Shown: positions 9,116-28,904 of the stretch, piece after piece
Layout of the letters: every line of letters begins with the position of its first letter
Numbering within the stretch: position 1 is the first letter of the stretch
IMG/VR virus record: IMGVR_UViG_3300001450_000030
Span: 1-28,904 of that record
DNA from: a virus
Reading direction: 5' to 3' (one strand)
DNA: 28,904 bases
Notes under the pieces: generated by a model
What the model was told of the DNA's origin: nothing
The model's database searches: none
The model's input: only the letters and a program-made list of their open reading frames with translations
Position numbers and translations under genes: made by a program

Positions 9116-9748
9116 ATGTCAACAACACCCATTCAGCGGTCCCGTCAGTATTCGTCCTACAGTGGTGCGGACATCCGCATTGTCATCAATGGCGAATACT
9201 TCGGAGCCTCCCAGGCCCTCTCTCACGCTATCCAGCGTGAGAAGGTGCCCGTTTATGTTCTCGGTAGCCCTGACCCGCTTTCCTTCTCAAGAGGAAAGCG
9301 TGGTATTGCAGGAACAATGGTCAACCTTGTTCTCGGTCAGGACCCCATCTACACTGAGCCTTTCGCCGACATGAAGTATCTTGCCCGCAAGGACGAGATC
9401 TTTGGATCGATTGACAACCTCAACGATGCAAGCGCTGGCCAGGATACTCTGAGCAATGTTGCAGATGATCCAAACTTTCAGTTTGACACAGGCGATCTGA
9501 CTAGTAACTATGTTGCTCGAAGTGCTTTCTACATGGACCAGCTTCCCCCGTTTGATGCGGTTGTTGTGGCTGCAAATGAGTACGGCAACGCTGCTAGCAT
9601 GAGAATTCTTGGAATTGAGATTCTCAATCAGGCAAGCGGAGTCAGTGTTGACGACTCTGCCATTGAGCAGCAGTCAACATATGTTGCTATCAGCATCGTT
9701 GGTTGGAGAGAGCTAGACATGAACGACTTCCAGGATCAGCTTGACTAG
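9116..9748 (+). CDS. Tail tube protein
   Basis: The 210-residue protein starts 8 bases after AGGAGACAC and lies directly downstream of the sheath, the standard sheath-tube order of myoviruses. The sequence fits the tube beta-barrel: an N-terminal SGADIRIVINGEYFGASQAL strand pair, then EKVPVYVLGSPDPLSFSRGK leading to GIAGTMVNLVL, a variable loop (about 85-135), and C-terminal strands ASMRILGIEILNQASGVS and TYVAISIVGWRELD. Two following genes share the same N-terminal plan, which supports a tube fold. Codons are of the high-expression type, and a strong terminator follows. It forms the channel through which DNA and any cargo proteins pass. Confidence 0.87.
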   Translation: MSTTPIQRSRQYSSYSGADIRIVINGEYFGASQALSHAIQREKVPVYVLGSPDPLSFSRGKRGIAGTMVNLVLGQDPIYTEPFADMKYLARKDEIFGSIDNLNDASAGQDTLSNVADDPNFQFDTGDLTSNYVARSAFYMDQLPPFDAVVVAANEYGNAASMRILGIEILNQASGVSVDDSAIEQQSTYVAISIVGWRELDMNDFQDQLD

Positions 9749-12196: not shown

Positions 12197-12907
12197 ATGG
12201 ACGTTCAATCCATCCTAAAATCAGATGGAGTCTACCAAACTGAGATAGCAGGCTACACTTTTTTGTGGCGCCTGCTATCCATGCGTGAGTTTAGAATCAT
12301 CTCTGGACTTCGCGACAGTGGGCAGATTACAGAAGAAAGGGCATGCGAAGAAGCATTCAAGAGAGTCTTCTTTGGCAACTACGACATGCTCTCCTCAAAC
12401 ATGCATGCAGGAGCCAGCGTATCGATTGGTCGCACCGCTCTTTGGTTGAGCGGTGATAACCAATCCACAATCAAGGAAGACATCATTCTGGCTCGCAAGT
12501 ACCATCCAAGGTATAGCGTGTACGAGAAGATTAAAAGGATTGTACTTATTGCATACCCCGCATACAGGCCAGATGACCTAGAAGAGTGGAGTCGTGTGAA
12601 GCTTCTTGAAATGTTTGCTGCAGCTGAAGCTCTGCTAATTGAGAAGGGGTTCCCATATGAAGCCTTTGATGTCAATGACATCGGCAAGAAGGACAAGGGT
12701 CCTCCAAAGAACCAGAGGATTAGGACAGAGTCAGAGAATGCTTCGATGGAGTCTGCGTACCATGGACAGATGCAAGGGTCCACTGTTTGGGACAAGACCC
12801 CTGAGGAGCTTGGAAAAAGAGGTAAGATGGTTGGTAAGACAAGGGTGAGAAAAGAGAATCTATCTAGTCGAGATCTAGAAAGGCTAGATAGGCTCACTAA
12901 TAATTAA
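12197..12907 (+). CDS. Probable tail assembly chaperone, second of a pair
   Basis: This 236-residue protein follows the previous one by 12 bases, with AGGCGGGTG as ribosome binding site. The first ~165 residues are helical, with the segment YEKIKRIVLIAYPAYRPDDL then EEWSRVKLLEMFAAAEALLI. The pattern 'I-h-x-A-Y-P, D-x-x-x-W-S, then E-x-F-x-x-A-E-x-L-h' is shared with chaperone-like proteins found before tape measures of large myoviruses. The last ~70 residues are basic and polar (KKDKGPPKNQR, RKENLSSRDLERLDRL) and likely flexible. Compared with classic pairs made by -1 frameshifting, these two are separate genes in one frame. Role inferred; baseplate assembly protein is the main alternative. 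Confidence 0.48.
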   Translation: MDVQSILKSDGVYQTEIAGYTFLWRLLSMREFRIISGLRDSGQITEERACEEAFKRVFFGNYDMLSSNMHAGASVSIGRTALWLSGDNQSTIKEDIILARKYHPRYSVYEKIKRIVLIAYPAYRPDDLEEWSRVKLLEMFAAAEALLIEKGFPYEAFDVNDIGKKDKGPPKNQRIRTESENASMESAYHGQMQGSTVWDKTPEELGKRGKMVGKTRVRKENLSSRDLERLDRLTNN

Positions 12908-12919
12908 AGGTGCTAAGCC

Positions 12920-15900
12920 ATGGACTCTTCCGATCCATCAAACGATAGAAGCCTTCTGGCACCGGCCTTAGCAGCCGGTGTCAGTTCCATGGGCCTCATG
13001 TACGCAATGAGTACCAGAGGTGATGGCACTAGGTTCCTTGATGACATTGCAGACATGGCTACCTACTTGGGAGACAGCTCTCCTTTGGGCCTGATGCATA
13101 CCTTCCGCATTAGAGAGTTTGCTAGTCCTTTTACCTCATCTGCATATCAGATGAGACAGATTAACAAGCAAAGCGTTCCAGGTGTTAGTGCCTCCATGGT
13201 CGACGACACACTGAGCGTAATGTATGATAGTTCGTTTTTTCAGAATAAAGAAAGCATAAGCTATCTGTCTGATGTAACTGGATTGTCTACGGAAGAGCTA
13301 AAAGAAAAGGGAATTCATTCTACTTCTAGTGCGCAAGAGTTTGATATCTTGTTCAAGAGAGAGAAGAACGGAATAGGAAGCTTGCACGCTGTTCCCAAGC
13401 AAGGCGTGGACAAGAAGTCTGCTCTTTTGTCCTCCAATGTCAATTTGATGGAATACAGTGACACCAGTAGTGAGCTGTTGGACATTGGTAAGAGTACTCC
13501 AGTTAACCCTGCAGCCAAAGGCTACATGCAGGCTACTGATCAATATAGGCACGAGGGAGATCACAAGGTTGGCAGGATCTTCAAAAGAAAGATCAAGGGA
13601 CACGCTGAGGAGCTGGGGGATAAGGCTGTACACGCCTATGCACCGTATCTTCCAGTCTCTTCTATTCGGGGAGATGTAGATGACGCTGCCGGCCTGATGA
13701 GAAGAACGGGGCTGATAAGAGGCGTTGCTGCTGCATCTGTCGAAAGATTCAACAGGCTTGTTGACCAAACAGTTGGACTTATACCATCTCCAAAACTCCA
13801 GGAGATGGTCAGAGCTGCAGGAGTAGACAGAGTCAAAGAAGGGCCTGCTCTTAGACAGTACTTCATGGGATATGGCAAAAAGGCCATGAAGCTTGGAGCT
13901 ATTGGCCTAGGCGTTTCTACACTCAGTGACTTCAGAGACGACTTCGGTGGACTGGGCAACATACCCATATCAGGCATTGTTAGCGCTGGCCTGGGCATGG
14001 CGTTCAAGAAGTTTAACTTCTCAAACAAGACCTCTTTCGGAGTAGCAGCGGCCAGCTTCTTTGGACAGGTGCTGACCCCTGGAATGTCGAATGGACTAAT
14101 CTCTGGCTTTGCTGGCGCATATTCTTCACTGGATACTCTTAGAGGCAACACCCTCAACCCCTTCAACTACTATCGAAGAACGATGGAAGGGTTGCTCCCA
14201 GGTGTGTCAACCGTAGAGATGGGTGCCTTCTCCGCTGCAGCGGCAGTCACACTTGGTGCTTCTCAGTTTCGTGGGAAGACACTGCTGCAGCATGGATTGG
14301 AGAAGGTTGGATTTGCGGCAGACGATTATGTTCGACCACTGAGATCCATTGTTGAAGAAAAGTTTAATGAGAAAGCTCAAGGAAAGTTCAAGTTTGGGAT
14401 GAGGCACCTTTTCACAGATGGCGAAGACCTGTCATACGACAGGGTCCGAGACTATGTGAGAACAAGAAATGACGCTATGCGTTCGGCGAGAATTCAAAGA
14501 GAAGCTGAGTACCAAGATCTTCCTGCAGCAAAGAAGTATGAAAAAAGACTAGACCAGATTGCAAGTGAGTACCACCAGAGTGACTCCCCATTCAGGAGAG
14601 TGGAGCTGGAAGCAAGAGGGCTGTTTGAAGACGTCAGAGCGTCCATCATGGGGCTTGACCCAAAGCAGCATGTTGCACACGATGAGTTCAAGCTCAGGGG
14701 CCGGCTAGGAGCACTGGGCACACTTGGTGTCGCTGCCTTTATGGGGCAGCAACTTCTGACAGGTGGACTGCTCGGGTCAATGGAGTCCTCAGAAGAGCTC
14801 AGGGACATCTACTCAGGCGACCAGCTTGTTGAAGTCAAGAGTGGTCGGTGGTGGCTCTTTGGATCAAGAGAGTTCGGAGGTGACGAAGCCAACGTGAAGC
14901 TTCGTCACTCCAGGATTGCCCAGATCATGAATGGCACAGATGATGCTTGGGAGTGGGGTAACAGACAGGACAGTCTTGCAATCACAAAGTTCTTCCTAAA
15001 GAACTTCACATACCAACAAGAAGAAGAGCTGATGTACAGAGACCCATCTCTTGCATCTGCGTCTGCATTTGAAAACATTCCAATTGTAGGAGGCCTTCTT
15101 GCTGCCACCATTGGCAGGGTTGTAAAGCCTGAAAAGTATATAAGAGAAAATGAGTGGAACGATCCTGACTTCCCATCTTACTCTGCACTGGGTGATCCAA
15201 TTAGCGCAAACAGCTTTGGCACTAGAGCAGCTAATATGTATCAGCAGTTTACTGACATGATTGGTATGTGGGGTTGGGCCGCAAACACAGTTTCAAAGGC
15301 TACAATTGGTGACCAAAACTTTGAGTCAAGAAGACCTCATCTTGACACTATTGGTTACAGAACATCAATGACTGCATCTTTCTGGGATTCAGAGATTGGT
15401 GACCCAGGAACAACTGAAGCAGTTCGACGTGTCCTGATGAGAAGAAGCTCAGAGTACGAGACATTCAACCCTCTTCCGAACGACCAGCCCAGTTGGATGC
15501 CTATGAAGCTACGCATGGGTTCTCCAACTGCAAAGGCCGGTGGCCTAGCCAGATCCCTGCTTCCTGGCCCCTCAATGGAGAACATTTACCCAGAGCTGGC
15601 AGGAGTCCATCCTGAAGACTACCCGATGATTCACAGGATGAGAGTTCTATCTGCCCTTGCTCCAGAGACAAGAGAGTTTAGAGAGACGCAGAAAGCTGTA
15701 TATGAGATGGCCAAGAATGGTGCATACAAAGAAGAAGAGCTTAAACAGATTGAGCAGATGTCTCAAGATGCAGGCAGAACCCTTAGGGGCTATGTCAATG
15801 AAAAGGTAAACCCCAGAGCTATTGAAGTCCCCCTGATGAGCAGTCTGACCCAAGCAGCTTGGCAGACAGGTTGGGCTGCAGCCAGAAGTGCCGCTGCCCC

Positions 15901-16837
15901 AGCGGAGTACTTGGTCCCATTTGGTTTCAGGCCCTTCCAGAAGTTCACTGGATTCATGAGAGACCCCATTGAGCAGTACAAGTATGAAAATGTTTATGGC
16001 TCCCCGACTGGAGACTGGCAGGCTCCATGGAATGACTGGTTCAGACCAGCCTTCCTGACAGCTGGTTCATTGCTTCCAGGCGAGTTCACTCCTTCTTACA
16101 GGAAGAAGATTCACGATACAAACGAATACTTCGACAAGTTGGAGTTCTACAAGTACGCTTCGTTGGCTTTAGAAGCAGAGAAGATGGGAGGCAATGCAAA
16201 CGATCTGTATAGGCGCGCAGCTGAAACTCGATATGGAATCAATCCATATGGATCGACAATGGGTGTGTACTGGTCTCTGCCCATCGAGCAGAGAAAGTAC
16301 ATGCACTCATTCCTTGAGGCAGGAGAAAAAGAAAGGTCTCAGATTCTGAAGATCCTTCCAGAAGACCATAAGCATCTCTACAAGGCAATGTGGCAAAGGC
16401 TCGACTCTGGGGAAGACATGGAGCTGTTTGGTGGCAGTCGCTCTCGGGACGTTGACCCCAGATATATCCGACAGAGATTCTATGAGCTTCTTAACTACTT
16501 TGAAGAGAACCCCCTGCCTCCTCCAGACTTTATTGGCTGGGACCAAGGAGTCCAGATGGACGATATTCGAGTCCTCTTTATTAACGAAGAGGCCTCGAAT
16601 ATGCACAACTACAATGTGTGGGAGAAGCAGGTCCGATATGCAAGGGCAGAGCCCATGGCTGTCATGGCAGCACAGCAGCTTTCTGACATCACAGCAGGGG
16701 ATGCATACAGGGCTGCAAGTCGCACAGGAATGGATATCTCAGTTACACCAACAGGTGGAAGAACTGGTAGCGCAAACTTGGAGCTTGGTGACACAAGAGA
16801 AGATGGGATAACAAGTACCCTGCAACGCTTCTTGTAG
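12920..16837 (+). CDS. Giant tail protein in tape-measure position, with multiple hydrophobic segments
   Basis: A 1305-residue protein starting 7 bases after AAAGGTG. It has no recognisable enzyme motif. The N-terminus (residues 11-31, SLLAPALAAGVSSMGLMYAM) is hydrophobic. More small-residue-rich hydrophobic stretches lie at about 323-337 (MKLGAIGLGVSTL), 353-366, 373-400, 435-450 (GAFSAAAAVTLGASQF) and 596-620 (LGALGTLGVAAFMGQQLLTG). The second half is polar and aromatic, with a conspicuous SGRWWLFGS at 641-649 and helical runs such as EYFDKLEFYKYASLALEAEK. Following the two chaperone-like genes, this is where a tape measure is expected, and hydrophobic segments are common in tape measures that enter the host membrane. 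The rather globular second half is unusual for a pure tape measure, so an injected cargo protein is equally possible. Confidence 0.6.
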   Translation: MDSSDPSNDRSLLAPALAAGVSSMGLMYAMSTRGDGTRFLDDIADMATYLGDSSPLGLMHTFRIREFASPFTSSAYQMRQINKQSVPGVSASMVDDTLSVMYDSSFFQNKESISYLSDVTGLSTEELKEKGIHSTSSAQEFDILFKREKNGIGSLHAVPKQGVDKKSALLSSNVNLMEYSDTSSELLDIGKSTPVNPAAKGYMQATDQYRHEGDHKVGRIFKRKIKGHAEELGDKAVHAYAPYLPVSSIRGDVDDAAGLMRRTGLIRGVAAASVERFNRLVDQTVGLIPSPKLQEMVRAAGVDRVKEGPALRQYFMGYGKKAMKLGAIGLGVSTLSDFRDDFGGLGNIPISGIVSAGLGMAFKKFNFSNKTSFGVAAASFFGQVLTPGMSNGLISGFAGAYSSLDTLRGNTLNPFNYYRRTMEGLLPGVSTVEMGAFSAAAAVTLGASQFRGKTLLQHGLEKVGFAADDYVRPLRSIVEEKFNEKAQGKFKFGMRHLFTDGEDLSYDRVRDYVRTRNDAMRSARIQREAEYQDLPAAKKYEKRLDQIASEYHQSDSPFRRVELEARGLFEDVRASIMGLDPKQHVAHDEFKLRGRLGALGTLGVAAFMGQQLLTGGLLGSMESSEELRDIYSGDQLVEVKSGRWWLFGSREFGGDEANVKLRHSRIAQIMNGTDDAWEWGNRQDSLAITKFFLKNFTYQQEEELMYRDPSLASASAFENIPIVGGLLAATIGRVVKPEKYIRENEWNDPDFPSYSALGDPISANSFGTRAANMYQQFTDMIGMWGWAANTVSKATIGDQNFESRRPHLDTIGYRTSMTASFWDSEIGDPGTTEAVRRVLMRRSSEYETFNPLPNDQPSWMPMKLRMGSPTAKAGGLARSLLPGPSMENIYPELAGVHPEDYPMIHRMRVLSALAPETREFRETQKAVYEMAKNGAYKEEELKQIEQMSQDAGRTLRGYVNEKVNPRAIEVPLMSSLTQAAWQTGWAAARSAAAPAEYLVPFGFRPFQKFTGFMRDPIEQYKYENVYGSPTGDWQAPWNDWFRPAFLTAGSLLPGEFTPSYRKKIHDTNEYFDKLEFYKYASLALEAEKMGGNANDLYRRAAETRYGINPYGSTMGVYWSLPIEQRKYMHSFLEAGEKERSQILKILPEDHKHLYKAMWQRLDSGEDMELFGGSRSRDVDPRYIRQRFYELLNYFEENPLPPPDFIGWDQGVQMDDIRVLFINEEASNMHNYNVWEKQVRYARAEPMAVMAAQQLSDITAGDAYRAASRTGMDISVTPTGGRTGSANLELGDTREDGITSTLQRFL

Positions 16838-16849
16838 TCTTTCTAGCAC

Positions 16850-16866
16850 ACTTGGTGTAAGATGAT
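16850..16866 (+). promoter_or_regulatory. Candidate promoter element before the putative polymerase gene
   Basis: The 71-base gap between the two giant genes is AT-richer than its surroundings and reads CTTGGTGTAAGATGATTTG. GGTGTAAGATG resembles GGGTATAAGATG found after the capsid terminator. No terminator hairpin is visible in this gap; ACACTTGGTGT could form only a 4-bp stem. It may be a promoter or simply a leader. Confidence 0.25.
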
Positions 16867-16908
16867 TTGTAAAACGATTCTAGACACAACAGAGGCTTCG
16901 TAAACACT

Positions 16909-19900
16909 ATGGCACAGCCCCCCGATAATGATTCTGTTTTCAAAGATGTATTTGGCTTGTCAGTGGCAGCATCGCCGCTGCTGATTGGTGGCCTGTATGG
17001 CTACGGACAAGTGGTGTCCAACAGGTCGTCAGCCAATGCGCTTGATGCTGCTGTTGCTGTCGCTTCTGGCGAGTCCCCCAATGTGGCCCTGTCTGCCCAG
17101 AGCGGAAGGCTTGGAAGACTGGGCAGAGATGTTGGATCGGATGTAAGGAGGCAGGCCGAAGCAGTTGCGGAAAGACAAGTAAAAAGAAATGACCAACTCA
17201 TAACCGAGCTAACTGACGCTATCACAAGCGAAGAAAAACTATCACAGATGCTAGACCAGCAGGGTGCTGTGTTCCAGGCATTGTCTTCTACGATTGAGGA
17301 CCCCAACTCTGGCATGTCTGACGTCGTCAAGAAGCAAATGGGTTCCATTCTCGAAGACGCAATGAGATTGGAAAGCAATCCTGATGAGGTCAAAAAGGTT
17401 CTTGCTGGTGCTATCAGAACCATCATGGAAGGGGGAGAAAACAGAGATGGCCAAATTGCTTTCTCTCGACACCTGAAAGAGTATAGGAAGATAGGAAAGC
17501 ATCTTAGCGTTCCCAAAACTGGAAGAAGCTTATCAGGTGCGTTCCCCCCTCCATCTCCCGCTCTTGCTTCAAGCGCACGAGGGAGGGATCTTAGATCGGG
17601 CCTCAGCAAGGCGGGAGTGTCGAGGCTTGAGGCTATTCAGAAAGCAGTTCAAGGACAAGGCACTGTTGGCCTTGTCAGAAAGGGTGGTGTTACTACAGCA
17701 CAGATTAGAAGCAACAGGGGCGGTGGCTCTTTCGGCTCTGGTGCTTTTGTCACGAATGTTTCCTTGACAGACATCGAGTTTGGAAAACACAGGGTTTATA
17801 TGGGTGAGCAGCTGCAGACCCCCTATGTCGCCCCAAAGGGAATGATTAGCGAGAAGGATGCTTCTCAGGCTGTGGCAATGATGAGAAGAGGAAACACACA
17901 AGGAGCTCAAGCTTTTGTCGCAAGCTCAAGAGTAAACTTTGCAGATTTTCAAACAAGAAGATTTCTTACTGAGCTGGAAGAAGCTGGAAGCTTATTTGGA
18001 TTGGGGCGAAGAAAGAATGCTTTCAATGCGTCACTAACAGAAGTTATGCTTGTCGGTGACAGAAGCAGAGACAGTGTTACGAACACACAAGGAGCACCAG
18101 GAATTACCCAATTCGAAAGAGAGAAGATGAGCCATCTTAAGGTATTTGGATTGGAGAACATTCAAGACAAAGAAGCACAGATGGCCCTGATCAAGGGCAT
18201 GAGTGTCATGCCTGGGTATGATCCAGGTGTTAGCCCAGATGCAATCCAGACAACAATTAAAGACCCCATTCTTGCAGGAGGCAAGAGAGTGTACACCAGC
18301 GTAATGTATGCCCAGGGCGGAACTCTTGATCAAATGATGTCTGGGAGGGTAGGAGGGCATACAAGAAAAAGCCTGCCTATTACTGCTCGCGAAAGGCAGT
18401 TCTTTGGTAGAAGCCAGTTCTTTACTGTTAAGAAGAAAGACGGACGCATGGGAAAAAGCGGAAGAGGCGCTGGGTTCAGGTCTGGTGAAGGAAGGATTAA
18501 CAAAGCTGTCATTATGGACGTAAGACCAAAAGAGGTAATAGGAAGCCTTGCTAGTGTGACATCTGAAACAGGTGGAACTGTTTTTACAACCAGAAAGTTT
18601 ACCAGCACAAAGCTGTCAACCATACCAGTGCTAGACCCCAATGTCCACAAGAGTGCTATTAGTCCAATCTTGCAAAGGGTTTTAGATGAGGGCATGGGCG
18701 GTGAGACTGTTACGTTCACCCCAGCAGAGCTAGCAGAGCATGGAAGAGTTCTTGGTATGAGCAAGTCTGGTGTCAGACGCCTTACCCAAGAGGCGTCTGC
18801 TGCAAGTGGAGATGTGAGGATCAAGATTGCTGGATACTCAAGTGCATATGGACAGCATCTGATCAACCTTGCTATCGAGACAGACCAAACAGCTGGCACA
18901 GGAGTTAAGCTGTTCGGGCCTTTGGCCAAGGGTATCACTGACGAGATTGGCGAAGCCGAGGCAATAAAGCTGGTAGGGGGAGGCGGTGACCTAGCCAGCC
19001 TTGTCAGGGAAGGAGCATTGGTCACGGAAGGTTCAATGCTGAAGAAAAGCGCCGCCTTTATGGAACACCAGTTTCTTACAGGTGCTGCATACTTCTCAGT
19101 CTCAGAAGATCCAGATAGGTCAGTAGGCCGGATTCACAGTGTCTTTGGTGAAGCCAAGAATGTTATTAGCGATATTCTTAAAACAGAAAAAGGAATGACA
19201 GAAACAGAAGCTTTGTTCAGGTTTTCTCTTCGGAAGATGAGGGATGCTGGGGTCACCCCCCAAAGAGTTGGTCTTGTAGCTGGTGGCATGATGGCGCATG
19301 GTGAAAAGCTTTTGAGCGCCAACATGACTGTCAACCAGATTATTGAAAAGGAGTTTGGAAAAGACAAAGCAATGAAAATTATCGAAGAAGCAAAAAAAGG
19401 CTTTACTTTTGGTATTAGCGGTTTTGCAAAGGGAGAGGGCGCTGAGACTTTCGTCAACGCCCGAGGTTCAGTAGAGCGCAGAACCTTTGAGCAACTGCAG
19501 CACCAGCTAAGACTTAACCCAGATATGAGTGAAGACCAGATCTCAAAGATTCTGTCTGGAATCTACAGAAGAAAGGTTGGCGCTGCCGAGCACTTGGTTC
19601 TTGCTGAGTCAATGACTGCAATGGTCGGTTCCATGAAAGGCAAGGATTTTATAACTGAAGAAGCTGCAGAGAAGATGCAAAGGATTGGACTGGCAGAGTT
19701 GATCTCTAACAGAATGGCGAAGGGTGAGAAATTGGTTGACGTCTTAAAGGAGTCAGACAGTGGAACCATTCTGGATCTGTCTGATGTTGATGAGATGGTT
19801 CAGGGGGGCCGGAAAGCCGAAGAGTTCAAGTCTCTGGCAGCGGAGCTCAGAAAGAAGTTTGGTGGAACTGGAGAGATCTTTCTTCCAGGTGCAGATGCTT

Positions 19901-22164
19901 TTAAAGCAGTCAGAGAGGTCTCTATAAAGACAGACAAGGGTGCACGGATTGTTGATGCACCATTCAACAGAATGGTCAATGAGCTTGGCGCTAGCATGTT
20001 TGAGAGTGCCGGAACAGGTAGCAGTATCATGCCAGCACTTGACAAGTACGAATCAGAAGCCATTGACATGTACTCCAATGTCAGATCAAGAGTTCTGAGT
20101 GGCAAGATCAAGGGATCAGGCACTCATACGGCTGTAATGATCGACCCCTATTCTGGGGTCGGACTGACAGACAATCAGCAAAAGAGTGCCATGAAGGCTA
20201 TGAGGGCCTCAGGTGGGATGGGAATCTTTATGGACTCCAATGCCTTCCTGTCTCAGATGGCAAACTTCAGCAACTCTGATGGAGCCCTTAGTGACATAGA
20301 GCCTCATGGAAATGTTAACAAGTTTGTTGATAGAAAAATAAGCAAGTTCGGAAAGGTAATAAACCGATCTGACGATGTCACTCCTGAAGGCAGGATGATG
20401 AGAAGGTTCTTCACAGGCCTGGAAACAGAAAATGCTCAAGCCACTGTAGGGTTAGCTACAAGACACCCTATTCTTGCTCAGGGTAATGTGCAGATGACTA
20501 GTATCTTTAGGAGTGTCAAAGAAGTTGGAGGCTCGACAGAAGATATTGCCTTTAACATGTTTAAGCAAACAAAAAGCGGCAAAAGAGCAATTGCAAGGCT
20601 CAAAAGAAGAACAGGTTCCACAGTCAACAGCTTTGGAGCCATTGCCAATCTCATGGGCGAAGGTGGTAATCACAGAAAGGCTGTAGATGCTTTCTTTACT
20701 TCAATGCACAGAAACCTTGGAGAATGGTTTAGTAATGAAGGTGGAGGAGTTGTCTACCAGCCTGTAAGAGAGTTGGACGTGCATGCTAATGGTCAAAGGA
20801 ACAAGTATAGGATCGACTTTGGTGTTGCTGCCCAAGCCTTTGGTGATTTCGATGGTGATGCTTGGTCTGTTGTTCTCTTTTCAGAAGACGTACTCAAGTC
20901 AAAGAACGCTGGTGGCAAATCTGCAATGAACGTGCTTAAGGATTCTAGAGACCCAACCAGCCAGTACATGAAGAGACTGAACAGATACCAGACTACATTT
21001 GCAGTGTTTGGTGCAGAGGCAAAAGATGCACTCGAAATGATGGGAGGCAAATATGGCAAGACAGAAGATCTGGACAAGAGGATTGTTCAAGACCTGATGA
21101 AAGAGCATGCAGCTAAAACAGAAGTTGGAATGGTTGATGTAAACCTTTCCAAGATCAGAAGATCAATTCTCAATATGTCTGACCTGAGTACTGATGCTGC
21201 AACAGAAGCACTTGCTCTTTTGCAGGTGACTCAAGAGCATGCGGTAATTAAGGGAAAGAAGCTTCCAGTGTTCCTGCCTTTTGCAGCAGAAATGGTGGAA
21301 GCGTCGAGGGAACTGTTTGCAGGGAACGACAAGATGTTTAGAAGCTTTATGGAGAAAAGGATTTTTGGAGGCAGCGCATTTGACGATGGTGGGGTTGTTA
21401 AGATTACTGGAGCTGGCGATGATCCAGCTGAGGCGATCTCAAAGAATCTTAACAAAAAGCTTACCGATGGAACTGTGGATCAGCACACAGTCGATCTCAG
21501 GAGAGCCATAGACACTGTTGTCGCTGCAGTCACCCAGAGCAGACTCGACCCTCAAATCGAGGCTGCTTCTGCAGGCACTCTTGCAGCCATGCTGAAGAGA
21601 GACATAGATGACCCAGCCCTAAAAGAGCTAATGCTTGCAGAGAATGATGCAATTGGTGGAATGCTAGGAGGGGCTTCCAAGGGCTCAAGGATTTCTGTTG
21701 CAGACGCTCTAAACCTATCGTCAGATCAGTTGGCAAGAAGTGCCAAGCTCAACATGAAGGCGATGCTTGTTCCGACTGCAATAGGTTTGGTTGGCACACT
21801 CCTTGTTGGTGGAGTGATGAGCAGAGTCGGCTCGGCCCCCGGAGGAGGGGCCTCTGCCGAAGACTTGGCTCTAAGAGAGCAGCAAGCTGGTGGCTCTATG
21901 TTCAACCCACGTCCGAATCCAGAGCAGGCTCAGAAGTATGACAAGTCTCAAAGTGGTGGAGTTAGCAACAACCCACACCACATGAAGAGAGTTAAGACTA
22001 GGCAGAATTTCAATGTCAATGGTAAGCTGGGTGACAGTAGCCAGATAGGCCCTACAGCTGCAGCAATGTCTAGCATGCCAAACATGTCCGGTGGCATTAG
22101 GGTGTATGATGACAGACAGCCCATTACAGGCTCGTATGTAGAAAGAATGCTTGGTCTTGACTGA
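16909..22164 (+). CDS. Giant tail protein with RNA polymerase-like DFDGD domain (putative virion RNA polymerase)
   Basis: A 1751-residue protein. The ATG has only a weak, distant GAGG upstream, but no better start is in frame. Residues 15-36 are hydrophobic, ~65-170 are helical/coiled-coil-like, and 1618-1638 (AMLVPTAIGLVGTLLVGG) look membrane-active. Residues 1305-1322 contain AAQAFGDFDGDAWSVV. D1313, D1315 and D1317 match the metal-binding aspartates of the beta-prime catalytic loop (AAFNADFDGD in bacterial RNA polymerase; DLDGD in RDR/QDE-1). Upstream, TRHPILAQGNVQ (R1185, P1187) resembles R-x-P of beta-prime and NPCLHPGDVR of RDRs. Downstream, EVGMVDVN (1405-1412) and LQVTQEHAVIKGK (to 1450) parallel LG-I-NAH and LA-L-S-AVD--KTG of RDRs. 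GKIKG and KSAMK (1065-1096) may be the first barrel's lysines. I infer a single-chain two-barrel RNA polymerase fused into a tail protein; activity is unproven. Confidence 0.65.
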   Translation: MAQPPDNDSVFKDVFGLSVAASPLLIGGLYGYGQVVSNRSSANALDAAVAVASGESPNVALSAQSGRLGRLGRDVGSDVRRQAEAVAERQVKRNDQLITELTDAITSEEKLSQMLDQQGAVFQALSSTIEDPNSGMSDVVKKQMGSILEDAMRLESNPDEVKKVLAGAIRTIMEGGENRDGQIAFSRHLKEYRKIGKHLSVPKTGRSLSGAFPPPSPALASSARGRDLRSGLSKAGVSRLEAIQKAVQGQGTVGLVRKGGVTTAQIRSNRGGGSFGSGAFVTNVSLTDIEFGKHRVYMGEQLQTPYVAPKGMISEKDASQAVAMMRRGNTQGAQAFVASSRVNFADFQTRRFLTELEEAGSLFGLGRRKNAFNASLTEVMLVGDRSRDSVTNTQGAPGITQFEREKMSHLKVFGLENIQDKEAQMALIKGMSVMPGYDPGVSPDAIQTTIKDPILAGGKRVYTSVMYAQGGTLDQMMSGRVGGHTRKSLPITARERQFFGRSQFFTVKKKDGRMGKSGRGAGFRSGEGRINKAVIMDVRPKEVIGSLASVTSETGGTVFTTRKFTSTKLSTIPVLDPNVHKSAISPILQRVLDEGMGGETVTFTPAELAEHGRVLGMSKSGVRRLTQEASAASGDVRIKIAGYSSAYGQHLINLAIETDQTAGTGVKLFGPLAKGITDEIGEAEAIKLVGGGGDLASLVREGALVTEGSMLKKSAAFMEHQFLTGAAYFSVSEDPDRSVGRIHSVFGEAKNVISDILKTEKGMTETEALFRFSLRKMRDAGVTPQRVGLVAGGMMAHGEKLLSANMTVNQIIEKEFGKDKAMKIIEEAKKGFTFGISGFAKGEGAETFVNARGSVERRTFEQLQHQLRLNPDMSEDQISKILSGIYRRKVGAAEHLVLAESMTAMVGSMKGKDFITEEAAEKMQRIGLAELISNRMAKGEKLVDVLKESDSGTILDLSDVDEMVQGGRKAEEFKSLAAELRKKFGGTGEIFLPGADAFKAVREVSIKTDKGARIVDAPFNRMVNELGASMFESAGTGSSIMPALDKYESEAIDMYSNVRSRVLSGKIKGSGTHTAVMIDPYSGVGLTDNQQKSAMKAMRASGGMGIFMDSNAFLSQMANFSNSDGALSDIEPHGNVNKFVDRKISKFGKVINRSDDVTPEGRMMRRFFTGLETENAQATVGLATRHPILAQGNVQMTSIFRSVKEVGGSTEDIAFNMFKQTKSGKRAIARLKRRTGSTVNSFGAIANLMGEGGNHRKAVDAFFTSMHRNLGEWFSNEGGGVVYQPVRELDVHANGQRNKYRIDFGVAAQAFGDFDGDAWSVVLFSEDVLKSKNAGGKSAMNVLKDSRDPTSQYMKRLNRYQTTFAVFGAEAKDALEMMGGKYGKTEDLDKRIVQDLMKEHAAKTEVGMVDVNLSKIRRSILNMSDLSTDAATEALALLQVTQEHAVIKGKKLPVFLPFAAEMVEASRELFAGNDKMFRSFMEKRIFGGSAFDDGGVVKITGAGDDPAEAISKNLNKKLTDGTVDQHTVDLRRAIDTVVAAVTQSRLDPQIEAASAGTLAAMLKRDIDDPALKELMLAENDAIGGMLGGASKGSRISVADALNLSSDQLARSAKLNMKAMLVPTAIGLVGTLLVGGVMSRVGSAPGGGASAEDLALREQQAGGSMFNPRPNPEQAQKYDKSQSGGVSNNPHHMKRVKTRQNFNVNGKLGDSSQIGPTAAAMSSMPNMSGGIRVYDDRQPITGSYVERMLGLD

Positions 22165-22172
22165 GGTAGATA

Positions 22173-25100
22173 ATGCCAAACAACTATACTGACAGTGAAA
22201 AAGTATTCGTTATCAATGACGTAAGTCTAAAGATTGCACCAACAATGATCCAGCTCAACGAGCAAGATCTAACATACTCTTGGAAAACACTAAGAACAAA
22301 GTCGACAACGAAGATGGCATCTGGTCACACCAAGAAGGTGATCCACGTCCAGATCCCTTTTAAGAGCGAAATGATGCTTGATCTCCACAGGCTACTCGTG
22401 GAGTTCAGGCACTCTCCTTTTATGTTCATCGAGAACAGATACCTCAGAGAGGTTTTGTGTCCAGAATGGGGACCGAACAATAATCAGAAAATGGCCTTTA
22501 CACTGCGTAATGCAAATGTGCAACCAGCTGCAGGCCTTACTGATGTATGGATTCTCGACCTTCAGCTGTCTTGGTTTAACTACTTTCCATACACAAACAA
22601 CTGGCTCTACAGAGAAGACTGGTGTACCAATTGGCAGTTCTCTCAGAAAGAGGGAGAAGTCGGTCCAGGTTACAAGTACTCCATTGGTTGGACATACGAC
22701 GAGAACGGAAAGAAAGTAAACAGGCCCAGTTTGATTGACTACAACATAAATGCTGGCACCCAGAATGGAGTCCTGCCCTGGTCTGCTGTCCAGAAGGATT
22801 ATGAAAGCCTAGACAAGAAGACCATCATCGACATGGAAAGGATGCATCAGGGAGAAGTCTTTGACCTTCTACCCTTGCCCTCAAACATGTCTCCTGCAAA
22901 GTTTGTAAACAAGCCGTCTGACTCCAGAATCTATGTTCGTTATATCAACCTTCTTCAAAGAGATGCTTTGAAAAGGAACTTCAACATTGATTGCGAAGCA
23001 GATATTGTTGCACAAGATGGGTTCGACTACTTCTTTGCAGCAGCAAAAACTGCAGAAGGAAAGCTTACTACGCTCTCCCTCCATGAAGGAGGAGAGCTGC
23101 CCTGGTACGCTGGTCTGAAGAGCTCTTGGATATCTAAGATGCTTTATGAATCAGATGGGAATCTTTACAGCGAAGGGGTTGGTGGTGCTGACCAGCTTTC
23201 TTTTGCAGCATCCAAGGGAATCGAAGATAGAGACTTTGTCAGATCTATTAGAACAAGAAAGCCTGAAGTCGCCTCTGGAGTGAGGTTCTCATTCGAGAAG
23301 TATGCAAGTGTTCGCTACCCAGACAGCTGGGTTGAGAACCAGTATGTTCAAAGAAAGTCAGTACTCAGCAAGATTGAACTTGGTGCAATGAAGGACATGC
23401 TTCACGATAGATACTCAAAACATGATTCGAAAGTGGAGAATGCAGCTCTCATTGCTCAAATGCTCAATGAAAAAGGGGCAAGCGGAATGATGATTATTGC
23501 TGCGATTGTTAACTCTGTTGCAGAATCTGGTCTGGATCATGAAGCTGTCAATCAGAGCCCCCATCCAGATGGCGACCCTAATAGGTCTTCAGAGGGCCGA
23601 AGAAAATCTAATCACAATGCATACAACGTTGGGTATCCAAACGATCCAAGACCAGACAAGCCAAACTGGGCTGTCTCTGCTGGTCTTTTTCAGATTAATG
23701 ACTCTTCAGCAGCATGGGGCAACAAGGCTGGTACTGTAAAGCAAAGATGGGATCCTGTATTTAGCATTAACACGATTCAGTTAGACGAGGGCTGGCCACT
23801 ATTTGAGGCTGTAGCGAACGCAACAGGCGACTACAAGATTGCTGTAGCCGCATTTTGTCAGTTCGTAGAAAGACCACAGCACACAAATGATGCAAGCATT
23901 TATAAAGATTTGGAAGATTTAAGTACAAATACTCAGCAGAATAAAATAAACTTTCTGCTGATGAAGATCAACAAAAACGATCTTAACCTAACAGAGTTTG
24001 GCAAGCATGCCCAGACTAGAGCAAGAGGTGCGAAGGGAGTCTTTCCTGACATTGAGTCATATATTGATGGAAAATACAACAACAAGCCCAGCAATTCGAC
24101 ATCGCCTTCAACTCTTTCGAATAAAGGCACTGCGTCGACTGATGCAACAGAAGAGGAGCAAGAGGCAGCAAGGCTTGTAACGGAGAAAAAGCAGAAGAAA
24201 GTCCAAGAGCAAATGGCAGATTTTATGTCACAGATGCATGTTGACGGCTGGAGATACTACACAGAAAACTCCTATGTCACCAATGTTTGGTACAAGTACG
24301 AAGACATTTCTCTCACCCTTTCAAATAGCGAGTATTCGAATGGAGAGGTTGGGCAGTTGTTCAACCAACACAGTGCTGTTGTCACACATGTGTCAGCTGG
24401 ACTCAGACATGTTGTTGCTGACATTCCCATCATCGGGCAGAACACACCGACCCACCAGTTTCTGGGGTCGGTGCAGCCGTACTACGAGATGGAAATCACC
24501 TACAAGGATGGAGACTCTCCCTTGGGCGTGGGAGACAGGGAGGGCCTGCCCTTGGAGGCCAGAGAGATTAACAGTATGAAGAACATCTTGCAGAACAGCG
24601 CAAGGAACTTCAGACAGATTCCAGACTCTTGGTGCGCATCGGTAGACTGTTTCATAACTAGACTTTTTGGAAGCTATGAGTACGACGACCTATCTTTGCT
24701 AGAGTCAAAGTCCAATGCAGGTGGTGGTGTCAACCTCTTGGACTGGGAGATGACCAAGAGGATGGCATTCACAGGAAGTGCTCATGCGACTCTGCCTGGA
24801 CACCCTGGTGTGTCTACTGTCAAGCTGACGATGGAAGAGACCTCGCCCTACATCGAGGGCGAGACCCTGACGCCTACATCAGTTGCTGCAGATGGGCTTG
24901 ATGCGGCCAGATCAGAGGTCCTCAATGCAGTTTACAACTGGGGGCTAGACAAGTACGATCCGACTTTGACATCGCTCTATCTTGCTCAGCATGCAGGGTC
25001 CACCGATGATGAGCTGCTTGATCTTGGTTCGATGACCAACACTACGAGACCAGATGAGGAGAACTTTGGCAAGTTCGTACTGGATGACATCTTGTACCAT

Positions 25101-28100
25101 CCAAGTGAGACTGCACTGTTTGTTCCCAATGATGACTCGATTGCAAGCGCTCTGAATGCCCTTGGTGCAAACATGGGAGAGCCTGCAAGCAATGTTGGTG
25201 CGGGTGTTGGTGCAAACATGGGAGAGCCTGCAAGCAATGTTGGTGCGGGTGTTGGTGCAAATGGACAGCCAATTATATTTGCCAATAGTGACTATTACGA
25301 TGGCTACACTCAAGTAAGACTAGAAGACGATCAGAAGTACTTAGACTTTTCCCAAAGCAGTGTAACCTCTGGCGGTCATGTGTCTGGAGACATTAGCCAG
25401 CTGTTGGAAGAGAATCCAGATCTTGGAGACATTCCAATCAAGAAGCTTTTGGACTATAGGTTTGGACTTCATGGTCTGGTGGATAATGTCAGCTTGATGA
25501 TCGCAGAAGACCATCAAGCTGGTGGTGTAGACTTGTATAAGGATATTCAAGATCATAAACCAATCTATGGAGAGGCCCTGCCTCGCAAAGCTGTAGTTGA
25601 AGCGCTATACGGGCTCCCTGTCGAGCCTTCAATGTGGAGAGCATTTGCTTTGTACACGAGTACATATGCAGCACTTACATACAGAGGCAATACTGACACT
25701 TACACGATTTCCCCAAATAATGGTGCAGCACAAAGAGTAACGGGAAGTGTTGACTACTTTAAGGATCTTGAAGATGAATCGAAGTACCCGCCTGTTTTTG
25801 ATGAGGCTATTAGAACTCTTTCAAACAAGTACAAGAGATATGCAATAGACGCAGCATATCATGCTGACGATATTAACTCAAACCGTGACCCACTGCAGGG
25901 GCTGGGTAAAAAGCTCTGGGGAAGTATTGCGGGAGGAGCTGACAGAATTTTTAGTTCCATCATATCCGCATTCTCGGGAACCACTTCAGTCTCAGACCAC
26001 GATGATGCTGTGCATTATGACACCATGAAAAACATGGCAGACATCTATCTTGAAAAGATGCCTGCGAGAGTTCGCGTTAATGAGTTCCTGAAATTCTATG
26101 GATACGAACAGCTTCTTAGTGGCCTGTTTGCCGGTGGCTCTGATGAGGGAGATCTGAGTTCTCAAACTGGATACTTTGTACAGTCTCTTGACACATCTGC
26201 AGCCTGGGGGTGGGATGCTTCTCAGTCGTATGCAGTCTACAGAGGACCTTTCAACTGGCAGCTTTCTAAGGGAAAAGACGGTTTATTTGCCGGGGAGAAT
26301 GCGGTCATACAAGGAGTGGTAGAGACTGTTGCAGCCCCTCTTTTTGCGCTTGATAGCTCTCTTCCTGCAAGTTTGAATTTGTTCTCAGACCGAACTCTTG
26401 GAGAGTTTGTCCTGAATCCTATTACGTCGATAGACGATGTTCTGTACAATGATGGCTCTGATAGATTTTCGGTGGGAGATGGACTTCTACACGAGAGCGA
26501 TAATTATGCTTCTGTTCTTTATGAAGTCTCTCGGGAGCATGAAGCTTCCAAGGTTAAGTACTTCAAAAGCGCCTTTACCAACATGGCAGATGACCTTCTT
26601 AGAGATGTGGCTCTTCTTGAGTATCTTGGGCTGGGACACCTTGTTGGCTCTTTGAGCGAAGTGCAACCAAGAGGAGACCAAGCCTACCCTGACATGGAGC
26701 TTCCACATCACCCTTACTACGGTGATGTGTATTCTGTCAGCCCAGACTTCTACATGTGGAACATTTACCAAGATGGTGGCGTCGGAGCTGTAGATATCAA
26801 GGGAGAGATTGCAGCTTCTATCGATGTGATTGTAGACAGGTCATACTCTGCAAGCAGGAGGCTTGCGTCTGGTGGTACGACCAATACAGCAAGAAAGGTT
26901 TACGAGGAAGACTCACTTGCCAGACCAAATGTAAAGATTGGAAGTGAAGGAAAGGATGGAGTAGACATTCCCTTCGCCAGACCATCAGACAAGCCAGATG
27001 CTGTTGTGGAGTTTGAAGAAAGGTGGCAGACTGAGACAGGGGTCGACATAAGCCCCAACCAGCCGCTTGTTCAAACTGGATCTGCCCCCGTTAACTTTGT
27101 GCTTGATGTTCCGTTTACTGGACCAACAGTTAGTAACACTGTTTTCCCAGATAACCAAGCTGGAGCATTCGGTCAGGCTCTTCCATCAACTGTAATTCCA
27201 AGATTGTCTTGGGCAGAATCAGAAGCCCTCAGCAATCAGATGGCAACTCTTCTTGAAGAAAAGAGAGACATGTTTGGTTCGAGAGCAGGCTTTCTTGGAG
27301 AGCAAAACTCAGCTGCGTCTGGCAATGCTCAGGTCAAGGAAGCGGCAAAAGGAACCCAATTTGAAAGGCCTACTGCAAGCCACCTGTTTGACAGAGCAAG
27401 CCTGAGAAAGATGGCAGATGGTGCTGCCAATACAATGCTAACTCACAAGTACAGAGTGGCAAGAGCATATCCAACTTACAAGCTGTTCTTTGTTGAGGAG
27501 GATGAACTCACAGATCGATTCATTAACTATGATGACTTTTATTCTTATGCTGCAGTTAAAGACTTCTACTACGAAGAAGACAAGATGAGCCCAGTCCAGA
27601 CTGCAATCATCACTCTTCAGAACATCTCTGGAATTCTTGATGGGACAAAGAGAAATGCGGTAACAGACATTGACCATCTCAGTAAGTCAAAGAAAGCACA
27701 GAAGCAAAGTGATATTGACCTTCGCTCCATGGGCACCAGTCATGAAGAATTGTATTCAGAAGCAAATACTACAGACTATGAAAGCCAGGATGGGGTCCAA
27801 AGCTTTGGTGCCCTTGCGCTGAGAACAGGGCTCAATGTCCAGCTCCGTGTCGGCTATTCAAACGATCCCAGCGACCTTCACGTCCTCCTGAGTGGACGTG
27901 TTGTCGCAGTGCAGTGGAACAAGCAAGGAGACCTTGCAGAGATAACTGTGCAGTCTTTTGGTGCTGAGTTGGTTCAGGAGACAAAGGGTTGGCAGGAAGA
28001 TGGACAGGTCCCAAGCTACCCCACAACTCACCACCTTCTTGCATCCATGATTATGGAGCCTGAAGTCGTTCACTTTGGAAGATGGGAGATCGGACAGCTG

Positions 28101-28904
28101 TATCAGCCAGGAGAGTCCAAGGATGTTTCTTTTGACTTTACTGACTACTCCAACGAGGGTGCTCTTGCACATCTGACTGCACTAAACTCTGCTACTAAGT
28201 GGATGGCTAATCATCCCGGCCTTATGGCTGTTGGCATGATAGGCATAAGCGCATTCAGTTTAACTCCAGCCGGTGGAAGCATTGGAAGACTTCTTGGAAA
28301 GGCCCCCCTTGGCATCGGAAAGCTTGTCAGCTTTCTTGGCCGCTCACTGAATATTGTTCCTGGAAGAATGGGAGTGAACTCTTTCAAGAGGGTTCTGCCC
28401 AAGCAGGCTCTTTCGAGACCTGTTAGCGCCATAGAAGGTACGAACGGGAAGACCCTAATTGGTCAAGCGTTTGCTCGTGCAAGCGACAAAATTAGAGAAA
28501 GGCTTACGAGAGCAGGACTTGATAAAAAATTGATTGACGAAGTTTTTAATGTTGGCAAAGTTACTGCTTTCAAAGTAGATGATGCTGGTGAATTCATATT
28601 AGTAAACGGAGCGAAGGTTGTAAAAATAGGGTCTGAGTATGCAGCAGAAGCAGCAGCTATGAATGCGAAAATTGCCACCAGGGCCGCAAGAGCTCTCTGG
28701 CTTGGAAGGGCAGAGCCAGTATTCGGAGGCGTTGCATCAGGAGGAGTAGCAGGACTGAAATCACTGTTCAGCGTGTCAAATGCATGGAGTGGTGGCAAGG
28801 GTGCTGCTCGCTTCTTGTTCGATTTTGGTAGCAGTTACACTGGCACCTTTCTTAGAGTTGCTGCAGTTGGCTTTGGCGCAAGCGCGGCAACAATCGTGGC
28901 AAAG
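22173..28904 (+). CDS. Giant baseplate/tail-tip protein with tail lysozyme and hub-like domains (3' end outside window)
   Basis: The frame is open from ATG 22173 (GAGGT site 5 bases before) to the right edge, at least 2244 residues. Residues 1-160 look like a baseplate domain (FVINDVSLKIAPTMIQL, HSPFMFIENRYLRE), and a related-looking segment follows at ~690-810 (VADIPIIGQ, THQFLGSVQPYYEMEI). Residues ~425-585 form a lysozyme-like domain of the phage tail type: VAESGLDHEAV with likely catalytic E451, SAGLFQIND with Q507, and VERPQ with E566-R567-P568. A perfect 15-residue tandem duplication spans 998-1030. Residues ~1865-1990 resemble a tail hub (LRTGLNVQLRVGYSNDPSD, LLSGRVVAVQW). The last ~230 residues contain Gly/Ala-rich hydrophobic stretches at 2014-2040 and 2226-2244. 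I infer a tail-tip protein that cuts peptidoglycan and anchors the hub. Confidence 0.75.
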   Translation, partial: MPNNYTDSEKVFVINDVSLKIAPTMIQLNEQDLTYSWKTLRTKSTTKMASGHTKKVIHVQIPFKSEMMLDLHRLLVEFRHSPFMFIENRYLREVLCPEWGPNNNQKMAFTLRNANVQPAAGLTDVWILDLQLSWFNYFPYTNNWLYREDWCTNWQFSQKEGEVGPGYKYSIGWTYDENGKKVNRPSLIDYNINAGTQNGVLPWSAVQKDYESLDKKTIIDMERMHQGEVFDLLPLPSNMSPAKFVNKPSDSRIYVRYINLLQRDALKRNFNIDCEADIVAQDGFDYFFAAAKTAEGKLTTLSLHEGGELPWYAGLKSSWISKMLYESDGNLYSEGVGGADQLSFAASKGIEDRDFVRSIRTRKPEVASGVRFSFEKYASVRYPDSWVENQYVQRKSVLSKIELGAMKDMLHDRYSKHDSKVENAALIAQMLNEKGASGMMIIAAIVNSVAESGLDHEAVNQSPHPDGDPNRSSEGRRKSNHNAYNVGYPNDPRPDKPNWAVSAGLFQINDSSAAWGNKAGTVKQRWDPVFSINTIQLDEGWPLFEAVANATGDYKIAVAAFCQFVERPQHTNDASIYKDLEDLSTNTQQNKINFLLMKINKNDLNLTEFGKHAQTRARGAKGVFPDIESYIDGKYNNKPSNSTSPSTLSNKGTASTDATEEEQEAARLVTEKKQKKVQEQMADFMSQMHVDGWRYYTENSYVTNVWYKYEDISLTLSNSEYSNGEVGQLFNQHSAVVTHVSAGLRHVVADIPIIGQNTPTHQFLGSVQPYYEMEITYKDGDSPLGVGDREGLPLEAREINSMKNILQNSARNFRQIPDSWCASVDCFITRLFGSYEYDDLSLLESKSNAGGGVNLLDWEMTKRMAFTGSAHATLPGHPGVSTVKLTMEETSPYIEGETLTPTSVAADGLDAARSEVLNAVYNWGLDKYDPTLTSLYLAQHAGSTDDELLDLGSMTNTTRPDEENFGKFVLDDILYHPSETALFVPNDDSIASALNALGANMGEPASNVGAGVGANMGEPASNVGAGVGANGQPIIFANSDYYDGYTQVRLEDDQKYLDFSQSSVTSGGHVSGDISQLLEENPDLGDIPIKKLLDYRFGLHGLVDNVSLMIAEDHQAGGVDLYKDIQDHKPIYGEALPRKAVVEALYGLPVEPSMWRAFALYTSTYAALTYRGNTDTYTISPNNGAAQRVTGSVDYFKDLEDESKYPPVFDEAIRTLSNKYKRYAIDAAYHADDINSNRDPLQGLGKKLWGSIAGGADRIFSSIISAFSGTTSVSDHDDAVHYDTMKNMADIYLEKMPARVRVNEFLKFYGYEQLLSGLFAGGSDEGDLSSQTGYFVQSLDTSAAWGWDASQSYAVYRGPFNWQLSKGKDGLFAGENAVIQGVVETVAAPLFALDSSLPASLNLFSDRTLGEFVLNPITSIDDVLYNDGSDRFSVGDGLLHESDNYASVLYEVSREHEASKVKYFKSAFTNMADDLLRDVALLEYLGLGHLVGSLSEVQPRGDQAYPDMELPHHPYYGDVYSVSPDFYMWNIYQDGGVGAVDIKGEIAASIDVIVDRSYSASRRLASGGTTNTARKVYEEDSLARPNVKIGSEGKDGVDIPFARPSDKPDAVVEFEERWQTETGVDISPNQPLVQTGSAPVNFVLDVPFTGPTVSNTVFPDNQAGAFGQALPSTVIPRLSWAESEALSNQMATLLEEKRDMFGSRAGFLGEQNSAASGNAQVKEAAKGTQFERPTASHLFDRASLRKMADGAANTMLTHKYRVARAYPTYKLFFVEEDELTDRFINYDDFYSYAAVKDFYYEEDKMSPVQTAIITLQNISGILDGTKRNAVTDIDHLSKSKKAQKQSDIDLRSMGTSHEELYSEANTTDYESQDGVQSFGALALRTGLNVQLRVGYSNDPSDLHVLLSGRVVAVQWNKQGDLAEITVQSFGAELVQETKGWQEDGQVPSYPTTHHLLASMIMEPEVVHFGRWEIGQLYQPGESKDVSFDFTDYSNEGALAHLTALNSATKWMANHPGLMAVGMIGISAFSLTPAGGSIGRLLGKAPLGIGKLVSFLGRSLNIVPGRMGVNSFKRVLPKQALSRPVSAIEGTNGKTLIGQAFARASDKIRERLTRAGLDKKLIDEVFNVGKVTAFKVDDAGEFILVNGAKVVKIGSEYAAEAAAMNAKIATRAARALWLGRAEPVFGGVASGGVAGLKSLFSVSNAWSGGKGAARFLFDFGSSYTGTFLRVAAVGFGASAATIVAK
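25164..25261 (+). repeat. Perfect 45-bp tandem duplication inside the giant tail-tip gene
   Basis: Two identical in-frame 45-bp copies (25164-25208 and 25209-25253) are followed by 8 matching bases of a third. Each encodes GANMGEPASNVGAGV. Identity at every base, synonymous sites included, suggests a recent duplication, or one maintained by slippage, in a flexible linker. Confidence 0.97.

Follow-up and report, generated by a model that had tools for sequence, protein, structure and literature searches.

What would the catalytic signature of an RNA polymerase be doing inside a phage tail gene? The window analysed here, a stretch of 28,904 nucleotides within a 68.6-kb record of an uncultured virus, contains an open reading frame of 1751 codons among the genes of a contractile tail. 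In a preliminary description, residues 1065-1457 of its product (20101-21279) had been read as the catalytic centre of a polymerase lodged in a protein of the tail module, whose gene follows those of the sheath and tube. DFDGD, with D1313, D1315 and D1317, is found at the quoted positions in ORF 16909-22164, and the accompanying R-x-P, EVGMVDVN, LQVTQEHAVIKGK and GKIKG/KSAMK are likewise as quoted. The surrounding genes are as follows.

6753..9098, plus strand: tail sheath (phrog_16991, E=3.4e-19)
9116..9748, plus strand: tail tube (35% identity to the KLEB27-3 tail tube)
12920..16837, plus strand: conserved tail structural protein (orf145-like, 1305 aa), the synteny anchor, homologous to ME3_35, MTATph1 gp26 and KLEB27-3 gp033
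16909..22164, plus strand: tail-slot protein with RNA polymerase core, 1751 aa, an ATG-start ORF syntenic with ME3_36 and KLEB27-3 gp034
22173..28904, plus strand: baseplate hub / tail lysozyme protein running off the window, homologous to ME3_37, with a weak PF18013 match

The gene and its synteny are established: the order from capsid through sheath, tube and, further on, the 1305-aa structural protein to the window ORF and the baseplate hub is common to three relatives of Bacillus phage 0305phi8-36, namely Acinetobacter phage ME3, Bacillus phage KLEB27-3 and Moorella phage MTATph1. The hub ORF carries a tandem repeat of GANMGEPASNVGAGV at residues ~997-1032 (window ~25160-25280). Past the window, structural genes extend to ~51.7 kb of the record and are followed by opposite-strand genes, including Pol III alpha, DnaG-type primase and ThyX, a layout that matches the published genome plan of 0305phi8-36 (PMC2147016). 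Three genes of this opposite-strand part have the following positions in L072, which represents the same virus record.

8056-8706, minus strand: Rv2179c-like exoribonuclease
12222-14750, minus strand: DnaG-type primase
16521-19127, minus strand: Pol III alpha

On its own, DFDGD, the only DxDxD in the window protein, is barely above chance. Among 20,000 composition shuffles of the ORF, DxDxD occurred in 25% and DxDGD in 3.3%, so that the motif alone is weak and its conservation in homologues is the real evidence. Compared directly, the window protein matched no Pfam or PHROG family and no convincing PDB family; sequence searches returned only a near-identical contig and no phage record, and an exact-pattern search for GDFDGDAW gave no other occurrence. 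A scan of genome contigs yielded a single MAG contig. Because the window ORF diverges too fast, relatives were sought through its upstream neighbour: IMG/VR was searched with an alignment of that protein, without using the motif, and the next large ORF was examined in 63 loci. About 40 distinct homologues, all from phages of the 0305phi8-36 / ME3 / KLEB27-3 type and all encoded after the conserved tail protein and before the baseplate hub, carry DxDxD in a polymerase-like context, with an upstream R-x-P and a downstream I-x-x-K (for example RYPTIKQSTVQ...VGTAARLKADYDGDFLSSV). This count takes in KLEB27-3, where the gene (gp034) is annotated as 'structural protein', and two loci added later; ME3_36 is annotated as 'hypothetical'. 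The features of the window protein that are aligned with these relatives or predicted from its model are given below.

18721..18978, plus strand: residues ~605-690, candidate for the beta-type (first) barrel, including K667 and K674 and corresponding to the relatives' conserved PGxxLG...K-x6-K segment (inferred assignment)
19960..20100, plus strand: residues 1018-1064, predicted from the window model's secondary structure (moderate local confidence) to form a helical hairpin where beta' has its clamp coiled-coil
20101..20121, plus strand: GKIKGSG, counterpart of beta' GKRVDYSGRS at the start of the Asp barrel (rGk..GS in the family alignment; S1070 in 27/31; phiKZ and AR9 beta' align here too)
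20461..20469, plus strand: R-x-P (R1185, P1187; TRHPILAQGNVQ), with R in 29/31 and P in 30/31, aligned with the R-x-P of phiKZ and AR9 RNAP
20521..20778, plus strand: insertion between R-x-P and DFDGD, ~residues 1205-1290, absent from most relatives in the alignment
20845..20859, plus strand: DFDGD, residues 1313-1317, predicted catalytic metal-binding motif, identical in 31/31 and 33/33 aligned sequences
21118..21168, plus strand: TEVGMVDVNLSKIRRSI, bridge-helix-region motif, aligned to GK..IG..SNLN..R of relatives
21247..21261, plus strand: I-x-x-K motif, K1450 (IKGKK), with K in 29/31 in alignment A4 and 33/33 in A7
21742..22161, plus strand: C-terminal tail-associated (anchor) domain with hydrophobic segment, recognized by the match of a profile of polymerase-bearing C-termini to polymerase-less slot proteins

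Members of the family are 11-18% identical to the window protein and the R-x-P is near-invariant; the only invariant columns are the three aspartates in the 31-member alignment and the aspartates with one K and one P in the 33-member alignment. Members had been picked for carrying DxDxD in the slot gene, and the triad's invariance follows in part from that choice. This does not hold for R1185, P1187 and K1450, which played no part in picking the sequences and are aligned and nearly invariant. Loss of the aspartates in homologues would have refuted the polymerase reading, and they are conserved. Full-length three-way MAFFT misaligned the core, and the core alignment uses trimmed C-terminal parts and added relatives; a long insertion interrupts the sequence of L009, the closest relative (trimmed pairwise alignment with L009 left out). 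A profile of relatives that included neither the window protein nor L009 matched the window ORF over residues 642-1740 (E=2.2e-5 per 100,000 sequences) and left the other 14 window ORFs and 200 shuffles unmatched (best shuffle E=35), and smaller group-set profiles alone were not significant against the ORF. Profile-profile comparison connects the window protein and L009 to group A (E=1e-10), group A to B (7e-21) and B to C (1e-30), and the all-group profile pairs DFDGD with DxDgD, RHP with RyP, GKIKGSG with rGk..gSg, EVGMVDVN with eiGqiSnln and IKGKK with IsaKH.

Judged by sequence profiles, the slot family appears to resemble multisubunit beta' subunits of the phiKZ/AR9 kind more than RDR/YonO enzymes. 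The best hmmsearch matches of the 31-member profile among PDB sequences were phiKZ nvRNAP (E=0.0026) and AR9 nvRNAP beta' (0.004), followed by Rpb1/beta', and RNAP chains made up 31 of its 34 matches, aligned from R-x-P to DxDGD. PF00623 (Rpb1 domain 2), the sole Pfam family matched by more than one member (5/31), was found in whole virus records in the slot gene only, with one match above the curated cut-off (E=3e-6). Homologue L061 matches phrog_2987 'RNA polymerase beta subunit' (E=1.8e-6), and KLEB27-3 gp034 has a weak match at the motif to RpoC of phage BpSp. The preliminary description had named RDR/QDE-1 as closest kin, a placement that does not survive, the profiles lying nearer multisubunit beta' (phiKZ, AR9, Rpb1). 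Membership of the RDR / QDE-1 / YonO group was ruled out, PF05183 matching neither the slot gene nor any homologue. Among the families it had proposed for comparison, Rpb1 domain 2 does match homologues, whereas PF05183 does not; single sequences of YonO, crAss gp66 and gp96, compared by hhalign, gave nothing significant. A search for a T7-type polymerase (PF00940) found no match, and since its controls were silent too, this absence proves nothing.

A first barrel had been suggested at residues 1065-1096. This assignment needs correcting: GKIKGSG belongs, as the beta'-type GKRVDYSGRSVI-like element, to the Asp barrel that also holds DFDGD, and any first barrel would more likely be found near 605-690, where K667 is kept in 28/31 relatives of the family alignment. 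Sequence and family searches of the upstream half for beta subunits or a beta-type barrel gave no significant match, and the only family match to such a barrel is a weak one to PF00562 in one relative. The alignment of profile A7 to T. thermophilus beta' 531-749 takes in the hairpin element and runs from the clamp coiled-coil as far as the active site.

Predicted structures were more informative for a homologue than for the window protein itself. The AlphaFold2 model of the latter has a pLDDT of 52 and a best Foldseek E of 0.02; RNA polymerase chains, almost only beta', account for 48 of the 50 best PDB matches to this model, and matches of such a model alone would prove nothing. By contrast, residues 1106-2256 of homologue L036 were modelled confidently (AF2; pLDDT 80, pTM 0.76) and have an RNA polymerase fold, with largest subunits of RNA polymerases making up all of the top 50 Foldseek matches in the PDB (E ~2e-6 to 7e-6). 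The matched part, ~250 columns, covers the beta'-type barrel and its surroundings. The fold claimed around residues 1305-1325 is in this way upheld in the homologue, although not by the window's own low-confidence model, and the catalytic centre in a tail-module protein is backed jointly by synteny, conserved aspartates, profile matches and fold match. The independently predicted BFVD model of ME3_36 has the L036 fold (E=7e-10), and the best named viral models for L036 include, besides ME3_36, the 'minor tail protein' of a siphovirus and subunits of viral RNA polymerases. That tail protein, BFVD A0A8S5SD80 (Siphoviridae sp. ctnpt50 minor tail protein), ranks second among the viral structures matched (TM 0.48 against the L036 model); its phage is classed as a siphovirus, and, as far as predicted models can tell, the protein probably contains this polymerase fold too. 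Upstream of the Asp barrel, L036 has a beta-rich segment with a conserved K pair, equivalent to window residues 605-690 (K667 and K674). By inference it stands where the beta-type barrel is expected, and it has no significant match of its own; for that reason a complete beta-type barrel, and with it a single-chain two-barrel architecture, is only inferred, if likely.

The last ~150 residues of the window protein stand apart as a conserved unit of their own, which includes a hydrophobic stretch. That this domain is separable is evident from polymerase-less slot proteins, which are matched by the profile of polymerase-bearing C-termini (0305phi8-36 orf146, 44 bits; L067, 36; L018, 32), and four lineages retain the slot protein without a polymerase. 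Since the C-terminal domain is common to these homologues, the polymerase can be regarded as a module of the tail-slot protein, and on sequence grounds it looks like cargo on a tail-associated platform. In 0305phi8-36 (L042, 14053-21663), the protein orf146 occupies the same slot and was assigned as tape measure by position and length (PMC2147016); its C-terminal ~150 residues are homologous to those of polymerase-bearing proteins, but it has no DxDxD and no detectable polymerase core. Slot proteins of groups B and C, such as L036 (residues 270-375), have an N-terminal RNase_T/DnaQ-like exonuclease domain.

Virion RNA polymerases in the form of giant structural proteins are known from short-tailed crAss-like phages and from N4-like phages. 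Gp66 of the crAss-like phage phi14:2 is, like the inferred window enzyme, a single-chain virion polymerase in a giant structural protein, and the slot profile aligns at its DFDID, although not significantly (E=0.06-0.1), and the gene has another neighbourhood. Thermus phage P23-45 gp96 shares with the inferred window enzyme the single-chain two-barrel RNAP, the DFDGD, the giant tail protein and the putative tape-measure position. However, the polymerase of gp96 lies at the N-terminus, lacks a clamp and belongs to the single-subunit clade, whereas that of the window occupies the C-terminal half and has a predicted clamp-like hairpin; P23-45 has a non-contractile tail and the window virus a contractile one. 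No homology of gp96 to the slot profile was supported (hhalign E=0.03, probability 2%), though the two were aligned at the catalytic motif. The phiKZ and AR9 beta' subunits give the best sequence-profile matches and have the same R-x-P ... DxDGD arrangement, but their RNAP is split over several polypeptides, whereas the window ORF is one continuous reading frame with the core fused to a tail domain.

P23-45 also has a second, non-virion polymerase elsewhere in its genome, gp64, whose transcript is among the pre-early ones made by the tape-measure-fused virion polymerase (PMC10770324), and some relatives of the window virus resemble it in this. In six records that have the tail-slot polymerase (G009, G010, G012, G013, G014 and G017), a gene away from the tail cluster encodes an RDR/YonO-like polymerase, 1100-1280 aa long. 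The PF05183 genes so placed are these and orf99 of 0305phi8-36, a non-virion RNA polymerase (PMC2147016); none was found in the window's own incomplete record. Orf99, YonO and RDR belong to the two-barrel superfamily, found in the same phage lineage, but orf99-type polymerases are separate genes, and neither comparison connects them with the slot gene: PF05183 fails to match it, and its profile has no match at the orf99 locus.

We consider it probable that the window protein is a single-chain two-barrel RNA polymerase, fused to a tail-associated C-terminal domain, that is carried in the virion, injected and used to transcribe the earliest genes, its packaging, injection and activity being inferred. 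The protein would be assembled into or beside the tail, travel in the virion and enter the host together with the DNA or before it, where it could transcribe the earliest phage genes without need of the host RNA polymerase; some relatives would then probably switch to the second, non-virion RDR/YonO-like polymerase, following the same logic as P23-45. That a ready-made RNA polymerase is probably injected is suggested by conservation of the signature in the same gene of ~40 related large phages. Virion delivery and early transcription are deduced from position, fusion and precedent; promoter use and RNA synthesis are inferred as well. The sole hint of virion presence is the annotation of KLEB27-3 gp034, and there are no proteomics or transcription data for the window virus. 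Without virion proteomics, the protein might also be a genuine two-barrel RNA polymerase that is not packaged, made late from the structural operon and serving late or middle transcription, as phage RNA polymerases can be non-virion (P23-45 gp64, PMC10770324; 0305phi8-36 orf99, PMC2147016). We find this unlikely, given a position fixed between two tail proteins in ~40 diverged phages, fusion to a C-terminal domain that in some phages persists in the tape-measure slot without the polymerase, the structural annotation in KLEB27-3, and the separate PF05183 polymerase in six related records.

The remaining alternatives dispute the polymerase itself or its product. Absence of the core from four lineages, and of DxDxD from the assigned tape measure orf146 (PMC2147016), would suit an ordinary tape measure or tail protein whose polymerase-like domain is degenerate, catalytically dead and by now structural in role, but we give this little credence: at 11-18% identity to the window protein, the Asp triad, the R-x-P and the Lys are the most conserved columns of the family, which is the opposite of relaxation. 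There is a similarly small chance that a two-barrel polymerase of other activity (primase-like, RNA-templated or PolD-like DNA synthesis) is delivered to start replication. RDRs and archaeal PolD are two-barrel folds too, sequence does not fix the template, and the N-terminal part of one relative has a weak PolD DP2 match; yet the best profile and fold matches are largest subunits of DNA-dependent RNA polymerases, and the record has its own Pol III alpha and DnaG-type primase for replication. A chance motif in an unrelated tail protein, conceivable from the shuffles (DxDGD 3%, DxDxD 25%), can practically be set aside in view of the independent profile (E=2.2e-5), the fold matches and the motif conservation.

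Virion polymerases carried by tail proteins have been recognised recently, and the one inferred here, in contractile-tailed large phages, is a new and apparently widespread form. No report of a tail-slot polymerase family in contractile-tailed phages was found in the open-access literature, and since the search was confined to open access, this novelty is provisional. If the packaged-polymerase reading is true, it explains how transcription starts in contractile-tailed large phages and revises which gene in the slot counts as the 'tape measure'; with the culturable phages ME3 and KLEB27-3 it could be tested directly whether a polymerase, folded or unfolded, is injected by way of a contractile tube. 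A broader proposal, which we regard as no better than evenly poised, is that in this large and ancient group of contractile phages the slot protein is an interchangeable platform for delivery: to its conserved C-terminal domain a single-chain RNA polymerase, derived from multisubunit beta/beta', was fused independently of the P23-45 and crAss-like enzymes, to be lost or replaced repeatedly and in some cases accompanied by an N-terminal exonuclease. In MTATph1 (L007, 29136-36492), the slot gene seems broken up, with a 1309-aa ORF, transposase and ATPase-like genes and, behind the transposase-like genes, a 313-aa ORF that consists of the C-terminal domain only.
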